DNA from: a virus
Direction: 5' to 3' (one strand)
Length of the DNA stretch: 29,852 nt
Virus record (IMG/VR): IMGVR_UViG_3300042923_001171
Coordinates: 1-29,852 of that record
The notes under the pieces were generated by a model. That model was not told the origin of the DNA, searched no databases, and saw only the letters and a program-made list of their open reading frames with translations. Position 1 is the stretch's first letter. The number at the start of each line of letters is the position of its first letter. The position numbers and the translations under genes were made by a program. Below, piece by piece: positions 3,814-7,388 of the stretch.

Positions 3814-4038
3814 TTACACCCCCTTAACAAAGTTTTCCGAGGCCAGTGCCGCACACAGGTCTTTATACGACACCAGGACCGTGTGCGTCCCCCGGGTCAT
3901 GGTCACGAAACACGCCCCCGGGGTTTCTTCCGCTTCCGTGATATCCAGCACGTTGTCCAGGTTAAGTAGATACGGTTGGGTAATCAGGTTCGCGGTTTCA
4001 CTGTTGGTCACGACAGGAACATTAATAAATTTTGGCAT
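3814..4038 (-). CDS. Small hypothetical protein, 74 aa
   Basis: First gene of the leftward block. The ATG at 4038 (MPKFINVPVV) has a good ribosome binding site (AAGGA, 9 bases upstream). The frame is open further upstream to 4263, but that extension starts at a GTG without a Shine-Dalgarno and crosses a highly structured leader, so I exclude it. The protein looks like several strands followed by a helix (LLNLDNVLDI, ACFVTMTRGTHTVLVSYKDL, CAALASENF). That pattern resembles small FlbD-type or other compact beta-alpha proteins, but no family is claimed. The coupled 480-aa gene follows after 2 bases. Confidence 0.8.
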   Translation of the reverse strand: MPKFINVPVVTNSETANLITQPYLLNLDNVLDITEAEETPGACFVTMTRGTHTVLVSYKDLCAALASENFVKGV

Positions 4039-4087: not shown

Positions 4088-4354
4088 AAATAGAATAAAA
4101 CCTCACTCCCTTGCTCTACGGCAGGGAGGAGGGTGTAGTATAGGGTGAACGGTACTCCCACCTCGAATCCCCTGAAAGGATTCGAATGCAAAGACAAAGT
4201 AGGAAAGCTTCGCTCTTTCCTCTCCTCCCAGTAACCTATGGCACAGGGCCTGCGGCCGTGCACTAAGCGCGAGTAATGTGTTCAGGATATTAGTCACCCA
4301 CGTATTTTTTTACAGATTTAAGAGAGGAGGGGAAAGAAAGACTCCTTCAGCCAA
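4088..4354 (-). ncRNA. Long structured leader or small RNA (possible attenuator)
   Basis: The gene-free stretch 4039-4394 is about 356 bases, with a phiKZ-type early box at 4355-4362 pointing left. The transcript would contain, in order: a hairpin GCAC..GGCC/GGCCGTGC (4241-4261); the segment GGGAGGAG (4229-4222); a hairpin GGAAAG/CTTTCC with a 7-base loop (4202-4220); a 7-bp hairpin CGAATCC/GGATTCG with a 7-base loop (4164-4184); and a short AGTA/TACT hairpin (4137-4156). CTCCTCCC (4131-4124) can pair with GGGAGGAG to close these arms into a multi-branch fold. A terminator-like hairpin follows at 4101-4132. No convincing ORF with a ribosome binding site lies inside. Whether this is a separate small RNA or a regulatory leader of the 74-aa gene cannot be decided from sequence alone. 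Confidence 0.5.
4101..4132 (-). terminator. Intrinsic terminator or attenuator hairpin in the leader
   Basis: CCTC-A-CTCCCT-T-GC (4101-4114) pairs with GC-AGGGAG-GAGG (4121-4132), giving 12 base pairs with two single-base bulges and a 6-base loop. On the minus strand it is followed directly by TTTTATTCTATTT. It lies about 60 bases before the first leftward gene and about 220 bases after the early-type promoter. Its right arm overlaps the segment that can pair with 4222-4229, so the two structures exclude each other. Confidence 0.65.
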
Positions 4355-4394: not shown

Positions 4395-5606
4395 ATGTCC
4401 ATCCGTGACGTCTTTCTCCAACACTGTCGACGGAAGAATTTTGATAACCGGTTCGTGAACGACGTCAAAAACTTCCACAACAGTTTTATTAACAAGAACG
4501 CTGACCACTCCGGTTTCTTTGGTTCCGGCTTACTCGGGGTACATCGCCTGCGCTGGACCTCCCAGGAAACCGGTCGCTGGTTTGATGAACTGCTGCAAGC
4601 TGACGGGGATGACATCAAAGCGGACCTGGTCGCCCAGAAACTGGTTGACCCCAACCACATCGTCGGCTCTGACCCCCTGAACCTGTCAGTGGTGTTCCTG
4701 GTGAACCAGACGTTCCGCTCTACTCTGCCCGCCGCTACCAAACGCGAGACCGCCATTCAGTTAATCAGTATCCTGCACTTCAAGTATATCTCGTCGCTGA
4801 TGACGAACTACTTTGGTTACGGTTCTGACCCGCAGATTGCCCTGCGCTGTTACGAAGCCATGAACTACAAGTTCGACCTCAAAGTCTACAAGACCTGGGG
4901 TAAACTGATTCGGGCCCGTGCTGAAGGGATTGTCGCCACCTCCGGGATTCACTTTAAAACCCTGATGACCATGCAGGACGATGAAGCGGTGCAATACGTG
5001 GTCACCGATATCCAGACCCGTATCCGTGTGGTGATTCTGAAGATTACCTCCCTCTACTACGAGGTCCGGGCTGAGAAACAAGCCGTGGTCTCCATCAGTC
5101 GCATGATTGAGGTGGAAGGGGAAGTGGAAGTGCGGGACATGATGCGCACCTCCTCCCAGTGGCGCCGCTATCTGTTGGACATCATCTCGGATGGGCCCAC
5201 CTTTGTGCGTCAGGAGCTCGTAGGGGCGGTGACGAAGATGAACCCGTCCATGAACCCCAACTTGTTCCTGCTCACGTTACAGTGGGTCTCAGAGAACTAC
5301 AACAACCCCAAAGAGAAGAAGCTGCAAGCCTACGTGGACTTTGTGCTGGAGTTCTCCTACGGCCTTATCAAGTCCAAAGGGGTGAACCCGGCCAACCTGG
5401 TGGAAGTCTCGGAAGCGGTGAAAGGGGTGATTAACGCCTCCCGTAACAAAGACCGTCCGGTACTCTACCTGCGTAAAGAAGGGGAAACCTACGTGCGCAA
5501 AGCCACCGGCAAGAAACCCCCGGTCCCGGTCAGTGGGGAACGTACTGGCTTGATTCTCTATCTCCTGCTGCGCAGCATGACCGCCCATTATTTCAAGGGT
5601 GTTTAA
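4395..5606 (+). CDS. Hypothetical protein, 403 aa, isolated rightward gene
   Basis: The ATG at 4395 (MSIRDVFLQHC) has a modest ribosome binding site (CAGGTG, about 7 bases away); a GTG at 4386 in frame is less likely. The protein is largely helical and soluble, with motifs such as LRCYEAMNYKFDLKVYKTW, VQYVVTDIQTRIRVVILKIT and RRYLLDIISDGPTFVRQEL. No signal peptide, membrane span or catalytic signature was recognised. It is the only rightward gene in the first 15 kb. It starts 32 bases from the divergent early box at 4355-4362 and ends in its own terminator at 5713-5730. The setting suggests an independently transcribed gene; function unknown. Confidence 0.85.
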   Translation: MSIRDVFLQHCRRKNFDNRFVNDVKNFHNSFINKNADHSGFFGSGLLGVHRLRWTSQETGRWFDELLQADGDDIKADLVAQKLVDPNHIVGSDPLNLSVVFLVNQTFRSTLPAATKRETAIQLISILHFKYISSLMTNYFGYGSDPQIALRCYEAMNYKFDLKVYKTWGKLIRARAEGIVATSGIHFKTLMTMQDDEAVQYVVTDIQTRIRVVILKITSLYYEVRAEKQAVVSISRMIEVEGEVEVRDMMRTSSQWRRYLLDIISDGPTFVRQELVGAVTKMNPSMNPNLFLLTLQWVSENYNNPKEKKLQAYVDFVLEFSYGLIKSKGVNPANLVEVSEAVKGVINASRNKDRPVLYLRKEGETYVRKATGKKPPVPVSGERTGLILYLLLRSMTAHYFKGV

Positions 5607-6786: not shown

Positions 6787-7388
6787 TTCTCCTCCTGATA
6801 CATACGGTCATACGCCTCACACAGCAGCGCTTCCCAATCGTCATACGTCAGCTTCACACCGATGCGACTTTCGTGGTTCCGCATCAGTTCCTTTAACTGG
6901 TCAATGACCAGGTTATCTTGCTCGTCCATCACGAGTTCCTCAAGGTGCGACCGTACCAGACGATCCAGCGCGGTCTTGGTGGTTAAATCTAAATCTTTAT
7001 TAAACGTAATGGCGTAGGACAGGTCTTGGTCATTGATGGCGATGTCCGCAACGTCTGTCTTGCCCAAACGCAAGAACACCCGGTTGGTGTCGTGTACCAC
7101 TTCGACATTCACCGCAGCGTCTGCAAATTTAATCCACGTCCCGGCTTTACGAATGATGGACATGGCTTCGTCAGTCAATTGGGTCAGGGTTTGGTTTTCC
7201 CGAACAGCGAACACGGAGTAAACGCGTAACACACCAAATGTGCGAACCAACACGTATGCGTCGGCTTTAAGCTCATAGGTGGGACGGACTTCCACCGCCT
7301 GCTTAGGACTCACCGGAAAAGAGGGCTCGCGTGAGAAGCTGGTAACCGCCGCGCTGCCCACACACTTCTGATTGAATTGCAATAACAT
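6759..7388 (-). CDS. Hypothetical protein, 209 aa
   Basis: First gene of the second leftward early-type unit. The ATG at 7388 has a clear ribosome binding site (AGGAG, 6 bases upstream) at the end of a roughly 200-base leader. The N-terminal half looks beta-rich (AYVLVRTFGVLRVYSVFAV, VNVEVVHDTNRVFLRLGKT). The C-terminal part is helical and acidic (DRLVRSHLEELVMDEQDNL) and ends in a proline-rich tail (CPPVPPSL). No known motif. It overlaps the 326-aa gene by 28 bases, so their products may act together. Confidence 0.82.
   Translation of the reverse strand: MLLQFNQKCVGSAAVTSFSREPSFPVSPKQAVEVRPTYELKADAYVLVRTFGVLRVYSVFAVRENQTLTQLTDEAMSIIRKAGTWIKFADAAVNVEVVHDTNRVFLRLGKTDVADIAINDQDLSYAITFNKDLDLTTKTALDRLVRSHLEELVMDEQDNLVIDQLKELMRNHESRIGVKLTYDDWEALLCEAYDRMYQEEKCPPVPPSL

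Follow-up and report, generated by a model that had tools for sequence, protein, structure and literature searches.

A structured non-coding leader with a predicted intrinsic terminator downstream of an early promoter box in a phiKZ-like jumbo phage

In the trp and his attenuators four leader segments are able to pair 1:2, 2:3 and 3:4 and the first gene is preceded by a terminator; in transcription-terminating riboswitches a multi-branched 5' domain is followed by a terminator. The HK022 put and lambda nut systems have a layout of early promoter, RNA element, terminator and early genes. For phiKZ, a ~180-nt non-coding RNA was described from the 5'-UTR of p40; its second stem-loop may cause premature termination and longer transcripts were found too (Gerovac et al. 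2021, PMC8545117). By analogy, this RNA appears to be the closest precedent for the leader reported here, which is likewise a structured 5'-UTR of a phiKZ-family phage, lacks small ORFs preceded by a good Shine-Dalgarno sequence and carries a terminator-like 3' stem-loop ahead of the gene. The p40 RNA is ~180 nt long, has two stem-loops and was detected experimentally, whereas the present leader is predicted only, and the two RNAs are not related in sequence. The p40 leader was rejected as a direct counterpart since a search of the 685-nt gap upstream of p40 gave no TATATTA early box.

The leader is found in the virus record IMGVR_UViG_3300042923_001171, whose 29,852 bases are called the window below. 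This 29.9-kb contig is from a phiKZ-like, PhiEaH1-related jumbo phage. Its closest annotated relatives are the Erwinia phages PhiEaH1 and vB_Ea277G, which match 12% of the query at ~77% DNA identity. The leader is real and unusual, and it differs from the leaders of related phages, which are short. The features of the locus, in the order in which a leftward polymerase would meet them after the divergent gene, are:

4395 to 5606, plus strand: divergent conserved phiKZ-family gene (phrog_2921; some records annotate a head protein)
4362 to 4355, minus strand: TATATTAT box of the early promoter (virion RNA polymerase)
4337 to 4312, minus strand: segment A, the 5' side of the stem (22 bp) that closes the three-way junction
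4302 to 4268, minus strand: hairpin 1 within the three-way junction, 9 bp
4263 to 4241, minus strand: hairpin 2 within the three-way junction, 9 pairs
4239 to 4214, minus strand: segment B, the 3' side of that stem; it includes the arm 4222-4229 of the earlier note
4186 to 4162, minus strand: stable hairpin of 10-11 bp that separates the 5' domain from the terminator
4132 to 4101, minus strand: intrinsic-terminator hairpin formed by segments C and D, -18.8 kcal/mol
4100 to 4088, minus strand: U-tract UUUUAUUCUAUUU directly after the hairpin
4038 to 3814, minus strand: P0001, first gene of the leftward early block, 74 aa, ATG at 4038, Shine-Dalgarno sequence AGAAGGA
3811 to 2369, minus strand: P0002, second gene, 480 aa
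2320 to 1529, minus strand: MazG-like pyrophosphatase gene of the same leftward block

Relatives of the divergent gene occur in 273 phage records, of which many are from phiKZ-like jumbo phages. No relatives of P0001 and P0002 were found in the IMG/VR searches, nor of P0002 in phage records or GTDB genomes, and both proteins are without a Pfam or PHROG match. The codon score of P0001 is coding-like. Its frame remains open for 75 codons further upstream (4263-4039, minus strand), through the terminator hairpin, and an in-frame extension starting at GTG 4263 was rejected on its Shine-Dalgarno sequence and its codon score of -0.335, compared to a coding minimum of 0.009. The ~316 nt between the box and P0001 are ORF-free. 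Near the leader 5' end and at segment A no start codon has a convincing Shine-Dalgarno sequence, which makes ribosome-driven attenuation through a leader peptide unlikely.

The promoter box is of the TATATTAC/T type, faces the early block and is followed by TGA five bases downstream. It has one deviation from the surveyed motif, C at the D position, and PhiEaH1 and the IMG/VR locus L008 have an identical box at the corresponding divergent site. The family box agrees with the published early motifs of phiKZ, 201phi2-1 and OBP (PMC7058600). In every related genome that carries the motif TATATTAYNNNNDTGA (phiKZ, 201phi2-1, 2050HW, SPLA10, PCH45 and a PhiEaH1-like contig) it is confined to one strand, and the reversed control gave 0 matches. 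This directionality upholds the proposal of an earlier note, made from the sequence of the window, that a phiKZ-type early box precedes the block. The early motif is centred near -10 relative to the transcription start site (PMC7598289), and from the box position transcription of the leader is expected to start at ~4348-4352.

The whole leader folds with z = -3.3. Its most significant fold is the 5' domain (4340-4212; z = -4.6, 1 in 1000 shuffles as good), a three-way junction closed by the stem 4337-4312/4239-4214. This stem has 22 bp in blocks of 7, 8 and 7, with -30.8 kcal/mol as an isolated duplex, and segment A, overlooked in the earlier note, is paired in it with a probability of 0.98-1.0. 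In folds of successive transcript prefixes the stem is essentially complete once position 4214 is transcribed, and it is kept at all later 3' ends tested. The middle hairpin 4186-4162 has z = -3.4, with 4 of 1000 shuffles as good. The terminator hairpin 4132-4101 has 12 pairs (4+6+2) separated by single-base bulges (z = -4.0; 1 shuffle in 1000 as good), and its pair probability in the full RNA is ~0.98-1.0. It is G+C-rich and runs into UUUUAUUC, as expected of an intrinsic terminator; the U-tract resembles those that follow operon-end hairpins in the same window. The 12-bp hairpin and U-tract described in the earlier note are thus recovered at the same place, in a long non-coding leader with the early box upstream and P0001 downstream. 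As the upstream gene is divergent, this terminator does not represent the end of a co-directional operon located upstream.

The leader stands apart from those of related phages. The median distance from the box to the first gene is 46 nt in 69 of their early leaders, compared to 316 nt in the window, and at least some of the few leaders longer than 300 nt stem from short first genes skipped by the ORF filter. At the orthologous PhiEaH1 site the same box is followed by a 66-nt leader without terminator. No homologue of the leader DNA was found by blastn against phages and plasmids or in two 20-mer scans of IMG/VR, and a comparison with four related genomes gave just chance matches of 12-21 bases. 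No such leader was seen in other phages found through P0003, the terminase or MazG. Terminator-like hairpins are present in 7 of 47 early leaders, against 2.65 expected, an excess suggesting that some of these signals may be tolerated by the virion polymerase or belong to upstream operons. Four of the seven hairpin-bearing leaders come after the terminase gene of four different phages; within this set a divergent upstream gene is seen for the window leader alone.

Hairpins were also seen after other early boxes. The window has a second early leader at 7598-7389 (minus strand), with the box TATATTAC and a 16-bp hairpin (7501-7466) plus T-tract before the gene at 7388. Just past the terminase, the early box is followed by a hairpin with a T-rich tail, of a sequence different from the one in the window, in PhiEaH1 (L003), Serratia phage 2050HW (L006/L035) and Salmonella phage SPLA10 (L005/L061). 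Two further early leaders of 2050HW (L034, L038) carry the near-perfect hairpins GAGAGTAGGATTTTCCTACTCTC and GGTGTTGGTTTAAAAGCCAACACC, also with T-rich tails.

The earlier note had read the leader as a possible two-state attenuator in which an 8-bp helix excludes the terminator. The complementarity exists, as GGGAGGAG (4229-4222) matches CUCCUCCC (4131-4124) perfectly, but it is not confirmed as a realistic alternative fold: the probability of the helix in the free leader is <1e-4 and forcing it costs ~11 kcal/mol. The note itself cautioned that purine-rich tracts often pair by chance. Of dinucleotide shuffles of the upstream leader, 6.1% give duplexes with the terminator arm that are at least equally good; 8-bp Watson-Crick runs against this arm are found in 3.4% of shuffles, and in 16% when G-U pairs are allowed. 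The two-state reading is not supported because 4229-4222, the would-be antiterminator strand, is already locked as part of the 3' strand of the 22-bp stem, which is stronger and forms earlier, so that the predicted default is terminator-on. A related explanation is a factor-dependent attenuator of four segments, with A:B as anti-antiterminator, B:C as antiterminator and C:D as terminator. Binding of a protein or RNA to A would free B, which would capture C before D is made and let the polymerase pass. The topology fits the classical 1:2/2:3/3:4 scheme and, with A masked, B:C reaches 0.985-0.996 while the transcript 3' end lies at 4120-4112, before the terminator 3' arm is complete. However, once the transcript extends to 4106 or beyond, B:C falls to at most ~0.005 even with A masked and C:D prevails, with 0.96-0.99 in the full RNA. 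The switch would therefore require kinetic trapping in addition to a factor. In this the leader differs from the trp and his attenuators: its 1:2 pairing is much stronger than 2:3, which 3:4 outcompetes even with 1 masked, and a leader peptide is missing. Rfam gave 0 matches at the gathering threshold (with relaxed settings a miRNA model came out best, E = 1.3); unlike riboswitches, the leader has neither an Rfam match nor homologues, and its stable 5' domain leaves the terminator arm unsequestered. With B:C complementarity near chance and below 1e-4 in the unmasked RNA, the four-segment attenuator is unlikely.

Other explanations leave the terminator as it is and differ on what the polymerase does there. 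The 5' domain could modify the polymerase, by itself or through a protein that it binds, as in processive antitermination of the lambdoid nut or HK022 put type, so that the leader terminator and later ones are ignored. The order of promoter, structured RNA, terminator and early genes is shared with these systems and no fold of the leader is more significant than its 5' domain, but no known RNA family is matched in Rfam, the polymerase is a different one and related phages manage without such an element at the same place; we consider this mechanism very unlikely. A somewhat less improbable view, on a par with the four-segment attenuator, is that the hairpin and U-tract fail to stop the virion polymerase and that the long 5'-UTR merely protects the mRNA or sets its translation. 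In four phages a hairpin-U signal does follow the early promoter that lies where the terminase gene ends, and the early genes there must still be expressed. Those hairpins are located shortly past the terminase stop codon, with the box 14-22 nt beyond it, and may end the upstream operon, an explanation that does not apply to the window leader with its divergent upstream gene and a terminator strong in both hairpin and U-tract. Finally, the structure might have arisen by chance in intergenic DNA that is unconstrained or was inserted recently, and be functionless. It is unique to this contig and missing at the orthologous PhiEaH1 site, and G+C-rich purine/pyrimidine tracts can pair by chance; yet the 5' domain, the middle hairpin and the terminator each surpass 99.5% of shuffles, and little credence is given to a chance origin.

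The explanation that we favour, and to which we give about an even chance, is that the leader is a structured, non-translated 5'-UTR in which premature termination yields an RNA of ~250-260 nt and read-through feeds the operon. It builds on the computed promoter motif, folds and non-coding state of the leader and on its absence, also computed, from the orthologous PhiEaH1 site. Transcription would begin just downstream of the TATATTAT box, at a start site predicted from the expected spacing. The first ~130 nt would fold at once into the three-way-junction domain closed by the stem 4337-4312/4239-4214, the hairpin 4186-4162 would come next, and the terminator hairpin and U-tract (4132-4088) would follow. 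Provided that the virion RNA polymerase obeys the terminator, as we infer, much of the transcription would by default stop near 4090 and leave the compact RNA, presumably stable and possibly with a role of its own, and the remaining transcripts would run past the terminator into the genes P0001 and P0002 and the MazG-like gene. Most likely the leader sets a low, approximately constant expression of the operon, or yields a UTR-derived small RNA, or both, rather than acting as a two-state riboswitch.

That a phage or host factor bound to the folded 5' domain controls the passage of the virion RNA polymerase through the terminator is rather unlikely, though less so than any of the rival explanations above. 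If true, a viral multisubunit polymerase would be subject to transcription attenuation or antitermination in the early phase of jumbo-phage infection. The motif TATATTAYNNNNDTGA provides a clean marker of early operons across the phiKZ family. In nucleus-forming jumbo phages, termination by the virion polymerase and the tuning of early operons after initiation appear to be little studied. Its outlying length (~316 nt compared to a median of 46 nt) and strong terminator make the leader a good natural template for the response of this polymerase to a hairpin-U signal.
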